Part shown: piece by piece, positions 5,796 through 53,042 of the stretch | How positions within the stretch are numbered: position 1 is the first letter of the stretch | Layout of the letters: each line of letters begins with the position of its first letter | Assembly: GCF_002153425.1 (NCBI RefSeq) | Contig: NZ_KZ119600.1 | Location: 3,664,120-3,728,119 of the forward strand | DNA length: 64,000 nt | From: Litchfieldia alkalitelluris | GTDB taxonomy: Bacteria; Bacillota; Bacilli; Bacillales; Salisediminibacteriaceae | Direction: 5' to 3' | Notes under the pieces: generated by a model | What the model saw: the letters and a program-made list of their open reading frames with translations, nothing else | Told to the model about the DNA's origin: nothing | Database searches by the model: none | Made by a program: the position numbers and the translations under genes

Positions 5796-6691
5796 CCTTC
5801 TAGCTTTCCTTTCTCTACATCACGGTGCGAGACAAATGTATGATAACCCTCATCACCAAGCGTTTTTTTGAAAAACTCTGCTAACGTTACTGAACGATGT
5901 TTTCCACCTGTACAGCCGATTGCAATCACTAGCTGGCGTTTTCCTTCACGCTTGTAGTGTGGAAGCATATAAGTCAGTAAATCCTGCAACTTTTCTATAA
6001 ATTGCTTTGTCTCTGACCATTTCAGTACATAATCGTATACTTCTTGATCCAACCCAGTCTTTGGCCTCATGTGATCTATATAATGTGGATTAGGTAAGAA
6101 TCTCACATCAAAAACTAAATCTGCATCAATAGGAACACCATGCTTAAAACCAAAGGATAGTAACTGAACATTAAATACTTGCTTCTCCGTTAAGGAAAAA
6201 CGCTGTAATATTCGTTCTCTCAATTGAGTTGGCTTTAAATCACTCGTATCAATAATCATCTGCGCTTGCCCTTTTAGCTCATCTAAGAGTTCACGCTCTG
6301 CCTTAATGCCCTCTAATAGAGTTCCGCCTGCAGACAGGGGGTGTGATCTACGGGTTTCTTTATACCGCCTGACTAAGACACTATCCCTTGAATCTAAAAA
6401 GACGATTTGGGGTGTAACTTTGGATTCTGTACCAATCGTATCTATCGCACTAAACAATTGATCGAAGAATTCGCGGCCCCTTAAGTCAATAACAAGGGCA
6501 ACTCGCTGCATTTTCCCGCCAGAACCTTCCACCAAATCTATAAATTTAGGAATGAGGGCTGGTGGTAAATTATCTACGCAAAAATACCCCATATCTTCGA
6601 AGCTTTGAACGGCAACTGTTTTTCCTGCTCCTGACATACCAGTGATGATCACAAGCTCTAAATCATGTGCAAACCTTTTTTCCTCTTCCAC
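5792..6691 (-). CDS. rapZ: RapZ/YvcJ, P-loop nucleotide-binding protein
   Basis: P-loop ATPase/GTPase of about 299 residues with Walker A GMSGAGKT near the N terminus and a conserved C-terminal domain ([18 protein letters not shown]). The E. coli homologue adapts the sRNA GlmZ to RNase E; the B. subtilis YvcJ binds nucleotides and affects competence. Several starts are possible. GTG at 6691 has AAAGGTGG 8 nt upstream and gives the usual length, whereas GTG 6703 would overlap that RBS. Its stop overlaps the yvcK start. Confidence 0.92.
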
Positions 6692-10285: not shown

Positions 10286-10331
10286 TACGGGACCAGGTCC
10301 CCGAAATATTATTCGGGGACCTGGTCCCGTA
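10286..10331. repeat. REP palindrome, inverted pair
   Basis: Two copies of the GGGACC-W-GGTCCC palindrome in opposite orientation (10289-10302 and 10315-10329). Their extended arms (TACGGGACCAGGTCCCCGAA and its complement) are separated by 6 nt. Located 20 nt after the hisI stop, where the fold could end the his transcript, although no T-run follows. Confidence 0.85.
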
Positions 10332-17001: not shown

Positions 17002-17096
17002 GTCAGGGACCTGGTCCCCGAACTTTTTGTTGGTATTTTTACGGGACCTGGTCCCCGAACTTTTTGTGCGGGACCAGGTCCCTGAAGATTTTGTGA
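17002..17096 (+). repeat. cluster of three REP palindromes
   Basis: Cores at 17006-17019, 17043-17056 and 17070-17083. Each is followed by a variant of the tail A(A)CTTTTTGT or GATTTTGTGAAC. They occupy the leader region just upstream of hisZ, so hisZ-proximal transcription must pass through three hairpins. Confidence 0.85.
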
Positions 17097-20935: not shown

Positions 20936-20984
20936 GCCTGTCCACTCCTTATATAATGATGGGACCATAGTTACCAAAAAGTTA

Positions 20985-21000
20985 CGGGACCAGGTCCCCG
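20985..21000. repeat. REP palindrome
   Basis: CGGGACCAGGTCCCCG, 6 nt after the yvoD stop, between yvoD and ppaX. On the minus strand it is followed by TAACTTTTTGG, so it may act as a weak terminator. Confidence 0.85.
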
Positions 21001-21006
21001 AATATT

Positions 21007-21996
21007 TTATGAACTTTTCTCCCTTGGGTACTCCAAGTCTTTATCTCCTTGCCCCAACGAAGAAGTAGATAACTTACCATTTTTCTCAAGTCTATTCCAA
21101 ATCAACGCCACAGCCATTGTCAAAATAATAGCCGTCACAAGCCTGATAAGTAATAAAGGCCATAATGGAATTCCTAACGGCGCAAATAGCAGTGTATCCT
21201 CAATAACTGCGTGACACGCAACAAGGAAAATCATGACAAGGTAAATATCCTTTTTACTGACCCCGTCCTCCTTCACTGCTTGAATCATCACCCCAGCTCC
21301 ATAGGCAAGGCCAAAAACCAGTCCTGCTGCGAGTGTCGTAGACGTGTTTTCCCGTATACCAAGCACTCGTGTAAACGGCGCCGTCCATCGTGAAAATACT
21401 TCAAGCCACTTTAAGTCCTTCATCACTTGAATAAATACCATAATAGGAATCACAATGATCGCCAGCTGTAAAATACCAAAAAACGCACTCTCTACACCTT
21501 GCAGTACAATGGCTCCCCAGCCTGTCACTTGTTCTCCATCACTAGAAGGGACAAGTCCATACTTCGCAATTTCACCGCCTCCTTGCCAAACGAGGTTAAT
21601 TAGCCATGCAGAAAACAAAGCTAACCCGATTCGCACTAGAAGCACGATCCATATTTTTACCCCAACCTGTTTTGCTACTGCAGATTCAACAAATAGATTG
21701 TGAGAGAAGGAAAGCATGACTGCTAGTATGAAAACCTCCTTCACTGTCAGGTCCATGGTGAGTATTGCCCCAATTGCAGCATATAAATTCAAGACATTTC
21801 CCAATACCAGTGCAATCGATGCCTCGCCACTTAAGCCGATGAAACCCATTAATGGGGCTAAGAGTGAGGTGAGCCACCCCATCACTGGTGTATATCCAAG
21901 AATTGTCACAATTAAAGTGATTGGAAAAATAATTTTTCCTAGTGTCCAAGTAGTTTGGAGTCCCACTTTTAAACCGTTTATTAGTGTTTTCTTCAC
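21007..21996 (-). CDS. yvoD: YvoD-like membrane protein with nucleoside-recognition (Gate) domains
   Basis: Integral membrane protein of 329 residues with about eight hydrophobic segments and two Gate-type stretches (GFIGLSGEASIALVLGN and AAGLVFGLAYGAGVMIQAV). The family is related to spore-maturation and nucleoside-gate proteins. Its transported substrate is not known. GTG at 21996 has AGGAGGG 6 nt upstream. It is placed between lgt and ppaX as in B. subtilis. Confidence 0.85.
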   Translation of the reverse strand: MKKTLINGLKVGLQTTWTLGKIIFPITLIVTILGYTPVMGWLTSLLAPLMGFIGLSGEASIALVLGNVLNLYAAIGAILTMDLTVKEVFILAVMLSFSHNLFVESAVAKQVGVKIWIVLLVRIGLALFSAWLINLVWQGGGEIAKYGLVPSSDGEQVTGWGAIVLQGVESAFFGILQLAIIVIPIMVFIQVMKDLKWLEVFSRWTAPFTRVLGIRENTSTTLAAGLVFGLAYGAGVMIQAVKEDGVSKKDIYLVMIFLVACHAVIEDTLLFAPLGIPLWPLLLIRLVTAIILTMAVALIWNRLEKNGKLSTSSLGQGDKDLEYPREKSS

Positions 21997-33279: not shown

Positions 33280-33301
33280 TGTTACAAAATTCAGGTAAAT
33301 T

Positions 33302-33371
33302 CAGGGACCAGGTCCCCGAATTTTCTGTGAACGTTCACAAAATTGTGCGGGACCAGGTCCCGCACAATTTT
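33302..33371. repeat. two REP palindromes
   Basis: Cores at 33304-33317 and 33349-33361. The second is the centre of a perfect 33-bp palindrome (33339-33371) with arms AAAATTGTGCGGGACC and its complement. They lie between the uvrBA promoter and the minJ terminator. Confidence 0.88.
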
Positions 33372-33380
33372 CCTGCACAT

Positions 33381-35374: not shown

Positions 35375-35548
35375 AATAATTCCCCCTCCGCCAATTCTCT
35401 CTATAAAAAATACAACGTACTTATTATGTAAAAATTATTAAATAATTCCCTTCCTTTCATTGTAATTCAATTTCACTAAAATAAAAGCACTTTTTAGTCA
35501 ATTATTGCAATTTTTCTCTTTCATAATTATTCCAATAAAAAAGTTCAC

Positions 35549-35580
35549 AAAAAAGTCGGGGACCAGGTCCCCGACTTTTC
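35549..35580 (-). terminator. REP palindrome acting as ctpB terminator
   Basis: A perfect 29-bp palindrome with core GGGGACCAGGTCCCC and arms extended by AAAAGTC/GACTTTT. On the minus strand it is followed by TTTTTTGTGAAC. It lies 20 nt after the ctpB stop and has all features of an intrinsic terminator, so this REP copy is doing a terminator's job. Confidence 0.85.
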
Positions 35581-35598
35581 CGACTTTTTCATGACATT

Positions 35599-47408: not shown

Positions 47409-47587
47409 CGGACATTACTCCCTTATCCTTTATTTCCTATATCTACATATTAACGCTATTTTGATGATTTTGTTGTGGATTTTTATGTAAAAAATGAAGT
47501 GTAACGTAAAGAAACCTTGGTCAATACTAACAAAGCTACCTTTCATTTTAACAGTTTGACCTTATCCTTACAAGGACAAGAATATTT

Positions 47588-47632
47588 CAGGGACCTGGTC
47601 CCCGAACTTAAATTCGGGGACCAGGTCCCTGA
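47588..47632. repeat. REP palindrome, inverted pair
   Basis: Cores at 47590-47603 and 47616-47630 in opposite orientation, with AACTTAAATT between the CCCCG/CGGGG ends; the right copy continues into TGACAATTTTGTGACA. Between hpf and secA. Confidence 0.88.
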
Positions 47633-47674
47633 CAATTTTGTGACAGGTAATACATCAAGGAGTACCTCCAACAT

Positions 47675-48282: not shown

Positions 48283-48494
48283 AAGCAAACTCCTCCTTTC
48301 GGTTATGTATCTAATATTCTCCATACCCTCCCAATATTCCTTCTAAAACATTAATAAAAATTTAAGAAGATTCCTAAGGAAGTAATAGCCTATAACATCA
48401 CTATTATGATGATTAGACCTTTATATAATACACTTCTTACACTATATATATTAACTAAAATTAGAAAATTTATCCCTATGTTCACAAAGACGTC

Positions 48495-48537
48495 AAGGAC
48501 CAGGTCCCTGAATTTAAATTCCGGGACCTGGTCCTTG
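48495..48537. repeat. REP palindrome, inverted pair
   Basis: Diverged cores AGGACCAGGTCCCT (48496-48509) and GGGACCTGGTCCTT (48523-48536), each with the same A/G change in an outer arm, facing each other across AATTTAAATT. The shared change suggests that the pair was copied as one unit. Confidence 0.82.
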
Positions 48538-48587
48538 ACTTTCTTGATATTTTCTTGACATTCATGAAAATACTTATATTAATGCAG

Positions 48588-49000: not shown

Positions 49001-49589
49001 ACCATTTTAAACTGATTATTTCGACATTTTTCAACAGGTTCGACATCCTTCTAGTGTCGAGTGTTGGGGCTAATTTCAATTAATATTGCTGCAGGTTGAT
49101 AATTGTATAGCTATATAATTTTATCAAGAAAAATGACATGATATATTTTATAGGAAAACTGGCGTGTTCACAAATTTGTGCGGGACCTGGTCCCTTACAA
49201 TTTTCAAAATATGTCAAATTTATGTATTAGGAAAATATGGTATTGCAATTTCCCAACACTTCAAATAAAATGAAAATTAGCTTCAATAATTCTTCAAAAA
49301 CACTATTTTTATGACTGTATTCGACAAAATAAAAATTTTGATTTTTTACAAAAAAAGTTTCACCTTTTATGTCTAGCTACAATTTTCAAATCAATTTGTA
49401 GAATGGATATGAACCACTCCCATAACCTAACTTCTAGCGTCATACCACTCTCATTCCTTTCCTTTTTAATTTATTATTCCATAACCAGTTACAGTTTTAC
49501 GTAAGCTTAATTTACAACCACATACATAACCCTCTTTACCGAACCATTAAAGAATGTCTATTGTCATATCTTGATGAGGAGGTAGCTCG
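49001..49589. other. intergenic region with one REP copy
   Basis: AT-rich. One REP core GGGACCTGGTCCC lies at 49182-49194, with TTCACAAATTTGTG to its left. A small CGACA-N9-TGTCG hairpin is at about 49041-49060. No supported gene. Confidence 0.5.
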
Positions 49590-49697
49590 TTGACCTCTGG
49601 CTCCAAGGAGGATAAGGAACCAACAGCTGTACATAAGATAAAGGTTTCAATTACAGCGGGCAGCATGGGTGTGAAAAGAGTGACGTTTAATAATTGA
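49590..49697 (+). CDS. possible 35-residue small protein
   Basis: TTG start with GAGGAGG 7 nt upstream, encoding MTSGSKEDKEPTAVHKIKVS and 15 more residues ending VTFNN. It is not recognised. The last ten codons run into the left arm of the terminator hairpin (49670-49745), so stop and terminator overlap. Support is only the RBS and the position at the head of the RAYT-SSB segment. Confidence 0.4.
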   Translation: MTSGSKEDKEPTAVHKIKVSITAGSMGVKRVTFNN

Positions 49698-49745
49698 ACT
49701 CATTTGTTATTTAATAATTTGCTCACTCTTTCACATATTTTTTTT
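49670..49745 (+). terminator. terminator or attenuator upstream of the RAYT gene
   Basis: TGTGAAAAGAGTGA and TCACTCTTTCACA pair (one bulge) around an AT-rich 38-nt loop, then TATTTTTTTT. It ends the 35-codon ORF and would cut off read-through into the RAYT gene. Confidence 0.75.
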
Positions 49746-49778
49746 AGAGAACCAACATTACGAAAGGAGGCCATTGTT

Positions 49779-49817
49779 ATGATGACTACACCGAAAATCT
49801 ATAGAATAAGTGCATGA
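49779..49817 (+). CDS. possible 12-codon leader peptide
   Basis: ATGATGACTACACCG..., MMTTPKIYRISA, with an excellent AAAGGAGG 8 nt upstream. Its TGA overlaps the ATG of the next tiny ORF as ATGA. Possibly a leader that couples translation; no homologue is recognised. Confidence 0.35.
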   Translation: MMTTPKIYRISA

Positions 49818-49867
49818 GAAAGAGTAAATACAACAAAGAACCAAGAGTCATAGACTTTACTTTTTAA
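49814..49867 (+). CDS. possible 17-codon peptide
   Basis: MRKSKYNKEPRVIDFTF, started by an ATGA overlap with the previous tiny ORF and ending 23 nt before the RAYT start. Basic, not recognised. Confidence 0.3.
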   Translation: MRKSKYNKEPRVIDFTF

Positions 49868-49890
49868 CACAAAGGAGTGAAAAACTGAAT

Positions 49891-50589
49891 ATGCCAGTAC
49901 CTAAACGCCAAAATTATCCCGGGGCCGTCTATCATGTGATTAGTCGCGGTGTCCGACGTTCACCTATTTTTCTTAGCACAAATGACTACTTACAGTTTTT
50001 TCGTATATTAAATAATACGATGGAATATGCTCCTTTCAAACTACACGCCTACTGCCTGATGACAAATCATTACCACCTTTTAATTAGTACACAAATGGAT
50101 CCATTAAATAAGGTGATGCATTGTATTAATGGAAGCTATGCAACTTGGTTTAATAAAAAATATAAGCTCTCAGGACATGTTTTTGAAAACCGCTATGCCA
50201 GTCACCCTGTACCTTCAGATTATAAAATAATGACCGTGAGCGCATATATTCACAACAATCCATTGGCCGCTAACATCACAGATGATCCAATAAAATACCC
50301 TTGGAGTAGTTATTACCATTATGCAACCCCTGAAATTATTTCTAAGCCAGTCATCAGGGGAGGTACGAGCGTCCAGGAAACCTTGCCAAAAAATCTCCTC
50401 TTCGCAAGCCGCCCTAACCCCTCGGAATGGAAAAATTCCTCCATTACTTATCCACCACAGCCACCACCTAAATGTTTTACCCGTGATAAAATTCGTCAAT
50501 TATTCCCCATACCGCTTCACATACACTATCAAAACTATGTGAAACGAGAATGGAAGCTTTCTTGTATTCAAGATTCTACTATAAATTAA
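49891..50589 (+). CDS. REP-associated tyrosine transposase (RAYT, Y1 family)
   Basis: 232 residues of the transposase IS200-like (Y1) superfamily, RAYT subgroup. It starts PKRQNYPGAVYHVISRG, has the HUH-type pair His60/His62 in CLMTNHYHLLI, then FNKKYKLSGHVFENRY and the family's SAYIHNNPLAA (a Tyr here is the candidate nucleophile). RAYTs are single-copy, immobile-looking genes thought to cut and spread REP palindromes as single strands. There are no flanking IS ends. The window carries 18 GGGACC-W-GGTCCC palindromes, some within 1 kb on both sides. AAAGGAG lies 13 nt upstream. Confidence 0.88.
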   Translation: MPVPKRQNYPGAVYHVISRGVRRSPIFLSTNDYLQFFRILNNTMEYAPFKLHAYCLMTNHYHLLISTQMDPLNKVMHCINGSYATWFNKKYKLSGHVFENRYASHPVPSDYKIMTVSAYIHNNPLAANITDDPIKYPWSSYYHYATPEIISKPVIRGGTSVQETLPKNLLFASRPNPSEWKNSSITYPPQPPPKCFTRDKIRQLFPIPLHIHYQNYVKREWKLSCIQDSTIN

Positions 50590-50611
50590 ATAAAAACTAG
50601 GAGTGAAGTTC

Positions 50612-51196
50612 ATGTTAAATCAAGTGATGCTTATTGGAAGAATTGCAAAAGATCCTGTAATCCAAACAACAAAGGAAGGGACAGCGCTTACGAGAATATC
50701 TCTTGCCGTTCGCCGACCTTTTAAAAACAACGAGGGCAACTATGATACTGATTTTATTTCCTTAACTGCTTGGAAAAAACTCGCTGAAACGACAGCTGAT
50801 TATTGCTCGAAAGGTTCTCTCGTATGTGTGACAGGAAGAGTTCACATGAGAACCTATGATATAGACGAAAACAAGAGAATTACCACAACTGAAATCGTTG
50901 CAGAAAATATCACTTTTCTACATTTAAAAAGGAATACAAAAACAGAGATGGAAGTTCCAATCCCTGGGAAGCATCCAGTGGCTGCAGGCGAAAGTGTAAA
51001 TGGACATGCTGTTACTGTCAGCTCTTCCCCACCGCCGCAGGCACAGCAAGTAGAAGTAAGTGCAGGCGTTAGCGCAGATCCAACTAATAGTGAAAGGTCA
51101 GTAGCCTCCACCGTGGCCGTGGCTTCACCACCAACACCACCTCCATCTGGTACTGGAACTGATTCCTCCACAAACGGAGCTGAGTTGCCATTTTAG
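50612..51196 (+). CDS. ssb: single-stranded DNA-binding protein
   Basis: 194 residues: an OB-fold domain in the first 105 (MLNQVMLIGRIAKDPVIQTT, FISLTAWKKLAETTADYCSK, CVTGRVHMRTYDI), then a low-complexity Pro/Ser/Thr/Ala tail ending GAELPF. Most SSB tips are DDDIPF-like; this one keeps the final PF but has little acid, which may weaken partner binding. ATG 50612 has AGGAG 8 nt upstream. It lies 22 nt after the RAYT gene and is probably co-transcribed, a suggestive pairing for an enzyme acting on single strands. It may be the competence-type SsbB. Confidence 0.88.
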   Translation: MLNQVMLIGRIAKDPVIQTTKEGTALTRISLAVRRPFKNNEGNYDTDFISLTAWKKLAETTADYCSKGSLVCVTGRVHMRTYDIDENKRITTTEIVAENITFLHLKRNTKTEMEVPIPGKHPVAAGESVNGHAVTVSSSPPPQAQQVEVSAGVSADPTNSERSVASTVAVASPPTPPPSGTGTDSSTNGAELPF

Positions 51197-51271
51197 AGCT
51201 TCAACTTTTGAAAAAAGATGTACCATCGTTTTGCAAATGAATCTATTTTTTCAATAAAAGGAGATGACCTA

Positions 51272-51505
51272 ATGAACGAAATGGACCTACTAAAAACTAT
51301 TTTGCATAAACTTGCCCAAATTGAACGACAAATGATTAAAAAGGAAGATTTCGAAGAACTATCAGAGCAGCTAATCATCCAAGAAGAGCAAATTGAAGTA
51401 GTTCATGAACTTCTCGAAGATCTCCAAGTCAATGTAGATGTGAAGCATAGGGAAAATATCAATAGTGATGAAATACTTCTGAGGTATATTAGGGAGCCTG
51501 TATAA
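51272..51505 (+). CDS. small coiled-coil protein of unknown function
   Basis: 77 residues, MNEMDLLKTILHKLAQIERQ and onwards, acidic and almost entirely helical with heptad-like Leu/Ile spacing. AGGAG lies 8 nt upstream. It is the third gene of the RAYT-ssb unit, which ends at the terminator at 51614. No domain is recognised. Confidence 0.65.
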   Translation: MNEMDLLKTILHKLAQIERQMIKKEDFEELSEQLIIQEEQIEVVHELLEDLQVNVDVKHRENINSDEILLRYIREPV

Positions 51506-51526
51506 AGTAAATTGTCAATAAATTGT

Positions 51527-51544
51527 CGGGGACCTGGTCCCTGA
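51527..51544. repeat. REP palindrome
   Basis: CGGGGACCTGGTCCCTG, preceded by AAATTGT and followed by ACAATTTTGTGAA; 22 nt after the coiled-coil ORF. Confidence 0.85.
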
Positions 51545-51613
51545 CAATTTTGTGAAATGTACAATATACAATGAAAGACCAATATTCCGTAAAGTGAGAG
51601 TCCCAAACGAACT

Positions 51614-51644
51614 AGCCCCTTTCCACGTTGGGGCTCTTATTTTG
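51614..51644 (+). terminator. terminator of the RAYT-ssb unit
   Basis: AGCCCC-N10-GGGGCT stem followed by CTTATTTTG. Confidence 0.78.
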
Positions 51645-51656
51645 TCACAAAAAGTT

Positions 51657-51700
51657 CGGGGACCTGGTCCCCGAACAAAAATTGCGGGACCAGGTCCCCA
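51657..51700 (-). repeat. REP palindrome pair at the epimerase 3' end
   Basis: Cores at 51658-51672 and 51686-51699. On the minus strand the second reads GTTCGGGGACCAGGTCCCCG followed by AACTTTTTGTGAC, 18 nt or more after the epimerase stop, so it can end that transcript. Confidence 0.85.
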
Positions 51701-51717
51701 AATTTTCCCGCAATTTT

Positions 51718-52926
51718 TTATGTCACTATCTTCGAGATCCGCTCCATTGACTCCATTAATCCTCTTGTATTGTGATCCGGTCCTTTCCATGTCTCTACAA
51801 TCGGCTTCGATGTATCAATCTCATTTTCCGAAGTCAGCTGCCAATACCATTCACCGTGCTTCTGATCAATATAGTAATCACGTATATATTCCCATAAATT
51901 ATTGAAATGAGTTAAGTATTTATTCTCACCAGACAACTCATAAGCATTGAGAAGCGCCACCAATCCTTCTGACTGTACCCACCAAACTCGATCTCCGTCC
52001 GTTACCTCTTCACCAATGCTTTCATGAATGAAGCTACCATCTTCCTCCACGCCTCCTTCTAGACAAGCATTGACAATATCAACAGCAGTGGTCTTTATCA
52101 TGTCCATGCGCCGTTCACATCGAAGGACTTTGGCCGCTTCCGTTAGAATCCAACTACCTTCCAAGTCCCTTCCATAAGAAACCAGCGAAGAATCAGGTTC
52201 CCACCTGTTATTAAAGTACACATGAAAATGATTGTCTCCGTTTAAGACCTTTTCAACGATAATATCAAATAACCTTTCAAGACTGGCCTTTAATCCTTCA
52301 TCATCCCAAACTCTGTATAAATTTGTATAGGCTTCAAGCAACTGCAGATGTGTTTTGATCGATTTAGATACATGCAATTCGTGAACTTTATGACTGAGCT
52401 CACTATCTTGCTGCCACTCCCTCGAAAACGCTTCGAAGTATCCTCCGTTTTCAGCATCCACACCATTTTTTTCTAACAAATGATAGAGTTGTTTCCCTTG
52501 TTCTAGAGCTTCTTCAACCCCTGATGCTTGGAAAAATTCAGTCAGGCCATAAATAGCATATGCTTGATTGTACATATGCTTATTTGTATCCTTCCCAAGT
52601 CCATTCTTCTCGTCCACGGACCAGTAAAAGCCACCATGCTCCTTATCTAAAAAATGTTCCATCATATAGTCAAAAGATCGCTGTGCCACCTTCAGGTCAT
52701 CTTCTTGCTTAAATTTCCTGTAAGCAGCAGAGAAACTCCAGAGGATCTTAGAATAAAGAAGGCAGATATGGTCACATTCCTTATCGATGGAGAGATCAAA
52801 GAACAAGTATCCATGAAAGCCATCTCCATATTCATCTACAGCATGCGTCTTCCAGAATGGCAAAATGTGATCCACCAATTCCTTCTCAATCTCCTGCCTC
52901 ACGTTACTGAGATGACTTAATTCCAC
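51718..52926 (-). CDS. AGE-family epimerase, cellobiose 2-epimerase-like
   Basis: 402 residues folding as an (alpha/alpha)6 barrel. Family motifs are HGGFYWSVD, NKHMYNQAYAIYGLTEF, SYGRDLEGSWIL, WWVQSEGLVALL, HGEWYW and GPDHNTRGLMES near the C terminus. These include the His residues used for 2-epimerisation. AGE-family members act on N-acylglucosamine, mannose or cellobiose. The WYW/WKGPDHN arrangement is most like cellobiose 2-epimerases, which convert cellobiose to glucosyl-mannose. GTG start with AAAGGA 9 nt upstream. No sugar transport genes are adjacent. Confidence 0.82.
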   Translation of the reverse strand: MELSHLSNVRQEIEKELVDHILPFWKTHAVDEYGDGFHGYLFFDLSIDKECDHICLLYSKILWSFSAAYRKFKQEDDLKVAQRSFDYMMEHFLDKEHGGFYWSVDEKNGLGKDTNKHMYNQAYAIYGLTEFFQASGVEEALEQGKQLYHLLEKNGVDAENGGYFEAFSREWQQDSELSHKVHELHVSKSIKTHLQLLEAYTNLYRVWDDEGLKASLERLFDIIVEKVLNGDNHFHVYFNNRWEPDSSLVSYGRDLEGSWILTEAAKVLRCERRMDMIKTTAVDIVNACLEGGVEEDGSFIHESIGEEVTDGDRVWWVQSEGLVALLNAYELSGENKYLTHFNNLWEYIRDYYIDQKHGEWYWQLTSENEIDTSKPIVETWKGPDHNTRGLMESMERISKIVT

Positions 52927-52995
52927 ATCAATTCATCCTTTCCAATTCAAATCGTATCCTATAGTTTCCGCAATACACGTTCTAAACATTCACAG

Positions 52996-53025
52996 AAAAT
53001 TCGGGGACCAGGTCCCCGAATTTTA
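52996..53025 (-). terminator. REP palindrome acting as terminator
   Basis: A perfect 29-bp palindrome centred on GGGGACCAGGTCCCC, with AAAATTC/GAATTTT arms. On the minus strand it continues as TTTTCTGTGAA. It lies about 18 nt after the stop of the 53043 gene. Confidence 0.75.
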
Positions 53026-53042
53026 TGTGAACACACCCGCCA

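Follow-up and report, generated by a model that had tools for sequence, protein, structure and literature searches.

RAYTs (REP-associated tyrosine transposases, REP standing for repetitive extragenic palindrome) are domesticated transposases of unknown benefit, and they have been studied mainly in gammaproteobacteria. A stretch of 64,000 nucleotides from Litchfieldia alkalitelluris (contig NZ_KZ119600.1, positions 3,664,120 to 3,728,119; hereafter the window) holds such a gene in a member of the Bacillota, together with many copies of a short palindrome. Are the two partners? An earlier note on this DNA, made from the sequence alone, had proposed that this RAYT spreads this palindrome. We have followed this up in the source genome (G000, 4.88 Mb in 6 contigs), in a family comparison of 35 genomes and in an order sample of 397 genomes, 16 of which are from the family; other G numbers denote relatives, and L numbers extracted stretches. 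The reading we prefer, with a probability of roughly 0.8, is that of a RAYT-REP pair (a REPtron): a single-copy Y1 transposase, here called type A, sits in one syntenic place in the Evansella group and has a cognate population of REPs and REPINs (REP doublets forming hairpins). That this RAYT and this palindrome belong together is well supported, because presence, absence and core sequence covary over the 35 genomes and REPs crowd around the RAYT.

The palindrome and the transposase in the source genome

The palindrome, GGGACCWGGTCCC, is 13 bp long. A search allowing up to two mismatches gives 18 matches in the window, of which 16 are exact and two (48496 and 48523) carry one mismatch each; 0.30 are expected by chance, and none of 100 shuffles reached 18. 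All of them were found within 3 bp of the places listed in the earlier note, and they group into 11 sites. Their description as intergenic also stands, in that no window site lies wholly within an open reading frame (ORF) of 110 aa or more. The same holds for all 27 sites obtained by adding 16 from 40 kb of L005 and L006, under a gene call that was simple and length-based, with shorter overlapping ORFs dropped; one doublet outside the window (L005:15264-15321) overlaps the called GTG start (15287) of an ORF. A count over the whole genome, which had been proposed as a check, gives 103 exact cores, and a reversed-pattern control gives none. As many as 31 of the 103 fall within 35 kb (G000:858-893 kb), where 0.73 are expected, which suggests a burst.

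The RAYT gene (49891..50589, plus strand) encodes 232 aa with a Y1/HUH transposase domain. It matches Pfam Y1_Tnp at E 2.4e-14 and NCBIfam REP_Tyr_transpos at E 6.7e-18, yet the latter match scores 65 bits, below the curated cut-off of 80. By motif, the catalytic residues are H60 and H62 (HUH) and the tyrosine Y119. The AlphaFold model is weak (predicted local distance difference test, pLDDT, 54.7), so the Foldseek matches are supportive at most; the best of these is 4er8_A, a RAYT bound to its REP hairpin (E 1.1e-5, TM-score 0.35 by query length). A sequence search of solved structures with the RAYT gave none at E 0.01. The earlier note had spoken of one Y1-type transposase, which is right for the window but not for the genome, where there are four RAYT-like genes. 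In a tree of 27 family RAYTs the window protein lies within the type-A clade (support 100/99), to which its C-terminal extension is specific, and other G000 RAYTs lie in groups b (80/94) and d (100/100). Six loci are outside the tree; among these, the type-A genes of G012 and G017 were assigned by alignment and synteny.

Type A is present, near full length, in 12 of the 35 family genomes (G000, G009, G011-G014 and G016-G021), and the other 11 proteins are 41-67% identical to that of the window. Each of the 12 genomes has a single near-full-length match with the same neighbours: an SSB gene and then a 95-aa ORF follow it on the 3′ side in all 12, and csp and hpf lie upstream in all 11 genomes with a long enough contig. 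Both Y1_Tnp and REP_Tyr_transpos match all 12 proteins. H62 and Y119 are present in every one, H60 in 11 (it is R in G017). Ends of insertion sequences (IS), looked for only as inverted repeats, were not found among those within 1.5 kb of the RAYT.

What does the repeated element look like beyond its core? We read the flanks in 22 stretches of G000 (the window, L066 and L005-L024, sampled by core order in the genome list plus the window and L066), which cover 72 of the 103 exact cores and 144 core sides. The sides carry TCG in 49 cases, TGC in 40, TTCA in 35, nTCA in 5 and other letters in 15; for TTCA about 1% would be expected by chance. The outer tag of these REPs is TTCA and not GTAG, and the foot of the hairpin is without GTAG or GT[AG]G. 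Neither GTAG nor GTGG occurs among the 12 listed of the 15 other sides, and GTGG was seen on one G018 core side. Single elements tend to the form GTTCACAAAAnnnSS-core-SSnnnTTTTGTGAAC, with an arm on either side. In 20 G000 singles from outside the dense cluster these arms agree in 8.05 of 10 bases, a value that none of 2000 partner shuffles reached (shuffled 6.15); those of 23 doublet members have no mutual match (4.57 versus 4.79 shuffled). A covariation score of 0.424 versus 0.135 shuffled (0/500) comes from 32 hairpins that were chosen as palindromic and is hence biased, and the share of pairs changed on both sides in this set, 9/16, was equalled by 69 of 500 shuffles. Folded as single strands, six examples have ensemble energies of -20 to -32 kcal/mol, with z-scores of -7.5 to -12.3.

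Doublets in the 22 stretches have a 45-bp (17 cases) or a 27-bp (9 cases) spacing. Most of the former run TTCA-hairpin-arm-GTGAACGTTCAC-arm-hairpin-TGAA. Such a doublet has the layout of a REPIN, in which the TTCA, the hairpin and its arm are followed by the same parts inverted (arm, hairpin, TGAA): there are two inverted REPs and a spacer, and the whole folds as a hairpin, as seen in the two 45-bp examples that we folded. In the TTCA-first orientation, 33 loops read CTG and 4 read CAG. The core cluster at G000:C1:858548-893371 (L005:3548 to L006:18371) is made up mostly of 45-bp doublets spread over many intergenic gaps, and it is distant from every RAYT of G000. A search for an Rfam identity of the REPs gave nothing credible, the best matches (E 0.011 and 0.056) being to unrelated families and below gathering scores.

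Co-occurrence and core classes in the family

If the two belong together, they should be found together. The exact palindrome is abundant in four of the 35 family genomes (103, 52, 19 and 12 copies), all of which have type A. Genomes rich in the palindrome and lacking the RAYT were named in the earlier note as the contrary case; for the exact palindrome there are none among the 35 family genomes and the 397 of the order sample. The converse case, a RAYT without an excess of the palindrome, has a divided answer. Eight of the 12 type-A genomes hold 0-1 exact copies, but seven of them carry a hairpin of the same kind with another core, so that we rejected their low counts as a refutation; the eighth, G017, stays empty.

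A covariance model sees these other cores as well. It was built from 32 seed hairpins, all from type-A genomes and none from G021, and its hits were counted on both strands with at most 150 candidates scored per genome. There are 17-76 hits per genome in 11 of the 12 type-A genomes, including 22 in G021, and one weak hit in G017. Of the 23 genomes without type A, 21 have 0-2 hits, and G024 and G028 have 25 and 26. Fisher's test gives p 2e-6 for the co-occurrence of type A and model hits, ignoring descent. The 12 genomes that have a RAYT match other than type A are REP-poor, save G024, G028 and G027.

Three genomes within the type-A genera lack the gene or carry it changed. In G015 (genus g1) and G010 (g3) the neighbouring genes are kept, the syntenic locus has no trace of the RAYT, and there are no model hits. 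G017, which is 76% complete with 6% contamination, has a type-A protein with R at position 60, the first HUH histidine (L065:8514-9167). All three agree with REPs needing a working RAYT, though the cases are few. Type A occupies a single position across genera g1, g3 and g4, and was therefore probably present there in their common ancestor.

In the order sample a RAYT-like match at E 1e-20 occurs in 225 of 397 genomes. Among the matches listed, full length is reached without stop codons only in G000 and G009; the next in rank extends to 184/231, and the few that reach 200-213 do so only through stop codons. The palindrome is found in three of these genomes, 103 times in G000 and once each in two others. 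Outside the family, the matches listed hold no full-length stop-free type A, and the palindrome has at most one copy per genome. Viral contigs gave three stretches with an exact tagged core (two patterns) and no type-A relative.

The core itself differs between lineages. In the 11 type-A genomes of 99-100% completeness the dispersed hairpins have common arms and lineage-specific cores, which form six classes. The same arms with another core stand at six RAYT loci, where G016, G018, G011 and G009 have the core of their own class, and G014 and G019 a core one base off the dispersed class. Genome-wide, GGGGNCWGNCCCC is found 82 times in G009, 98 in G011, 26 in G016 and 30 in G018. With both strands summed, GGGACATGGTCCC is found 36 times in G014, 6 in G019, 6 in G020, 2 in G000, 1 in G021 and nowhere else. 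GGGACCSGGTCCC is found 17 times in G021, once in G016 and in no other. The RAYT locus of G021 gave no REP; the core class of this genome was derived from its dispersed model hits. Ten of the 12 type-A genomes have, beside the RAYT, a core of their own class, either exact or (in G019 and G014) with one base changed. In nine of the 12 a REP lies at -604 to -928 of the RAYT, and in G014 at about 1.1 kb upstream. Stretches of about 12 kb around 11 type-A genes contain 30 own-class cores versus 1.2 expected, with the genome sizes of the relatives rounded, and 8 of the 11 stretches are enriched. The window itself had been credited with six copies within 3 kb of the RAYT; the actual figure is nine copies, at six sites. 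Over 11 genomes, RAYT identity and core similarity are correlated (Mantel r 0.43, p 0.005, by permutation). Because each form of the transposase is matched, in the relatives, by a palindrome version of its own, what these bacteria have is a variant of the REP/RAYT repeat system described from proteobacteria.

A second pair has a bearing on this. G024, G028 and G027, all of genus g6, are rich in GGGGNCWGNCCCC (193, 173 and 35 copies) and have a RAYT of type C (L072, L073 and L074, respectively) with GGGGNCWGNCCCC palindromes no more than about 0.3 kb away, which in G024 and G028 lie to either side of it. This type-C RAYT and its GGGGNCWGNCCCC palindromes with other arms are a second RAYT-REP pair. 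It resembles type A in the closeness of its REPs to the RAYT and in having the core GGGG-T-CTG-T-CCCC among others; it differs in its RAYT clade (support 99/99), its arms (AACTGGGGGG) and its locus. G022, G031 and G033, genomes without a RAYT match, have 8, 9 and 9 copies of GGGGNCWGNCCCC.

Several observations weigh against a cognate RAYT-REP pair. Genomes are nested by descent, and the sample comes down to two losses, one changed copy and six core classes; shared descent would also yield a correlation between RAYT and core. The CWG core of G000 and G020 recurs in G012 and G013, despite RAYTs with 45-48% identity to the G000 protein. Three of the 11 twelve-kb type-A loci (G014, G019 and G021) are without an exact own-class core, and the class of G019 is thin, its six exact copies equalling the count of the same core in G020. 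In many singles TTCA is absent and each side carries an arm. The strand bias of the loop comes mostly from the dense cluster (CTG:CAG 26:2 there, 5:2 among exact cores elsewhere). A second RAYT of G000 (type b, L066) has two REPs 1.4 kb upstream, where 0.25 are expected (p 0.03). Finally, no clean empty site appeared in 27 comparisons between G016 and G018 (all 26 listed exact G018 cores of one pattern, in 25 alignments, plus two G016 sites), a REP or REP-like stretch always standing opposite.

One alternative is joint vertical inheritance only, in which the RAYT and the REPs have long resided in one clade and are kept or lost independently of each other. As sampled, only three of the eight family genera have type A and its REPs, and REPs are stable between close species, as this would have it. 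On the other hand, the two losses within type-A genera remove both partners, REPs crowd around the RAYT, the core beside the RAYT agrees with the dispersed one, and the separate type-C RAYT stands beside related REPs in three further genomes. We regard this alternative as improbable.

A second transposase, chiefly the type-b RAYT at G000:4426 kb, might instead move the palindrome, with type A a bystander. This gene has an open frame with a RAYT domain, besides its two nearby REPs. That said, REP-poor genomes (e.g. G015, G010, G025, G026 and G034) also contain RAYTs, of types other than A, and no such palindrome lies within 1.5 kb of six more RAYTs found in type-A genomes (L049-L054, of which five belong to the type-b clade). 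Furthermore, it is the core at the type-A locus that agrees with the dispersed core. This makes a leading role for another transposase very unlikely, and the cognate pairing with type A remains our preferred reading.

Stability of the sites and a possible mechanism

Does the RAYT move the REPs? Of the 21 initial alignments of G016 with G018, 18 have the exact core in both species; it is changed in G016 in L208 and L213, and in L206 the G016 side is REP-like only, without a core. In the six added alignments it is kept in both species in three, and altered by about one base in one species in the other three. Within one and the same REP site (L216 versus L222) G016 carries 44 bases more than G018, and length differences of 16 bases occur at two other sites. 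In the REP that precedes the RAYT, each arm differs between the two species and the pairing is kept. We conclude that REPs are old and stable in G016 and G018, where the alignments showed no clean empty site; their movement is inferred. Thus the claim that this RAYT spreads this palindrome stands as regards their belonging together, but no insertion event was seen in the 27 comparisons. By eye, a stretch resembling GTTAAnTTGATGGCAATGG stands opposite several REP cores (L206, L208, L213, L222 and L229, in G016 and G018); this is perhaps a second kind of REP tail.

By analogy with the biochemistry of proteobacterial TnpA-REP, the type-A RAYT would bind the hairpin as single-stranded DNA, reading its loop and top base pairs, and may cleave next to the TTCA tag by means of H60, H62 and Y119. 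It would thereby copy or move REPINs, at a low rate and mostly on DNA that is single-stranded during replication. A REP population without a working RAYT would not be maintained and would fade. In an analysis that is exploratory only, the residues separating the RAYTs of GAC stems from those of GGGG stems are at positions 45, 135, 170 and 180.

A bolder idea concerns places where REPs recur. REPs of different genera occupy the same gaps, upstream of the RAYT and between hpf and csp, with each genome's own core, and these gaps align poorly between genera. In the hpf-csp gap REPs are also present in G020, G018, G016, G011 and G009. Because the same gaps hold own cores, the sites hardly move, and the G016 and G018 arms differ yet pair, the RAYT could act as an editor, reading the loop and rewriting REPs where they already stand, by a concerted, hairpin-templated replacement that goes beyond jumping, with at least six loop/stem codes in the family. 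We put this forward tentatively, as a rather unlikely extension of the pairing. A decayed REP in the hpf-csp gap of G010 (20 of 27 bases in one alignment, by eye) was rejected, as the covariance model lent it no support at E up to 10 with filters off.

Stable sites would also be expected if the palindromes were elements of the host under selection (two-way terminators or protein-binding sites, for example), with the RAYT as a mere fellow resident. The hairpin is flanked by runs of A and T and folds strongly, REPs keep their place between G016 and G018, and in four relatives a long ORF, the start of which we take to be asnB-like, lies just before the REP found upstream of the RAYT. Yet there are no model hits in G015 and G010, where hpf, csp and SSB are kept (in G015 the long ORF as well), and REPs are not clearly concentrated between converging genes (5/26 sites versus 7/57 gaps). 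Host elements would also have to account for a core that changes with the RAYT lineage, for the REPIN layout and for 31 copies in 35 kb. We consider this explanation to have little chance of being right. REPs that belong to a RAYT-REP pair, our preferred reading, may still be put to secondary use by the host.

How does such a pair compare with known systems? RAYT-REP co-evolution is known in Stenotrophomonas (PMC2817692), REPIN numbers in E. coli are higher with a RAYT (PMC8049555), and group-specific recognition has been measured in vitro (PMC8266576). Type A is like these gammaproteobacterial RAYT/TnpA-REP and REPIN systems (PMC2817692, PMC8049555, PMC8266576) in being a single-copy Y1 transposase with REPs beside the gene and dispersed intergenically, in its inverted doublets, in that RAYT and REP change together, and in that REPINs are commoner with a RAYT. 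It differs in its Bacillota host, in the TTCA tag in place of GTAG, in singles that often have long matching arms on both sides, in the position before a resident SSB gene, in the C-terminal extension and in a score under the NCBIfam RAYT cut-off. In a GTAG/CGTC survey, GTAG repeats are named for Proteobacteria, Cyanobacteria, Chloroflexi and the PVC group (PMC3733652). Hairpins without GT[AG]G are found with TnpA-Y1 subclasses 2.6 and 3, which like type A are RAYT relatives with flanking hairpins; for subclass 2.6, copies of these recur in the genome (PMC6006769). Compared by description, subclasses 2.6 (mostly Bacteroidetes) and 3 (Planctomycetes, Acidobacteria and Proteobacteria) have weaker hairpins, unlike the strong ones of type A (PMC6006769). 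IS200/IS605 transposases share the Y1 HUH fold and hairpin DNA; unlike them, type A has one syntenic copy per genome and is without IS ends as defined above. Among the papers listed in the literature searched, which was mostly outside subscription journals, we found no description of RAYT-linked REPs in Bacillaceae or Evansella.

The case, in hosts that are not known as pathogens, is of value for the diversity of one syntenic RAYT and its REPs in Bacillota: a single family has at least six core classes, both partners have been lost inside genera, and one natural copy is altered at a catalytic histidine. It makes two questions testable: how does a RAYT read its hairpin, and what is the fate of REPs and host once the RAYT is gone?

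Neighbouring genes, individual elements and other palindromes

The SSB-family gene lies directly downstream of the RAYT (50612..51196, plus strand). The ORF caller starts it at GTG 50603, but ATG 50612, which follows GGAG, looks likelier. Next comes the 95-aa ORF (51218..51505, plus strand), which has no Pfam or NCBIfam match and a conserved C-terminal ENINSDE motif. It is present in 33 of the 35 family genomes, with or without the RAYT, and the SSB gene adjoins it in every family locus examined. The two stand together without the RAYT in 20 of 20 loci lacking type A (18 plus those of G032 and G022). These come from the 23 genomes without type A, of which G001, G031 and G033 are outside this count; G031 and G033 have no match to the 95-aa ORF. 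The earlier note had taken the SSB neighbour as a sign of an activity on single-stranded DNA, a suggestion that falls with these 20 loci. The SSB gene was rejected as a RAYT partner; it is a resident gene of the locus and not RAYT-specific, and the RAYT was either gained in front of it or lost from there. Joint transcription of RAYT and SSB is possible in type-A genomes.

The REP elements of the window are given here without strand. Upstream of the RAYT, a single lies about 0.7 kb away (49171..49205), a doublet with 27-bp spacing occupies the hpf-csp gap (48492..48539), and another such doublet lies at 47586..47640. Downstream there is a single after the 95-aa ORF (51518..51552), a doublet with 27-bp spacing (51654..51706) and a single that is a near-perfect hairpin (52993..53027). 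The elements further away are a doublet with 27-bp spacing (10289..10328), a triplet with 37- and 27-bp spacing and the left end TTGTCA (17003..17082), a single with poorly matched arms (6/10 bases; 20975..21009), a doublet with 45-bp spacing (33297..33372) and a single (35548..35582). The 45-bp doublet has the centre GTGAACGTTCAC and the left end TTCA, and the outer side of its right core is an arm instead of TGAA.

Palindromes of other kinds accompany further RAYTs of the family. In G015, 17 tandem copies with a period of about 91 bp (L076:6172-7653) contain AACCCGGGTT...AACCCGGGTT palindromes beside a RAYT match that is not type A; this tandem set is perhaps another REP array. The same genome has GTAAGACAGAGGRACCTGTCCCTCTGTCTTAC palindromes on both sides of a type-d RAYT (L075:4890-4921 and 6274-6311), and in G026 a RAYT is flanked by GGTTCC...GGAACC palindromes (L077:5498-5525 and 6215-6254).

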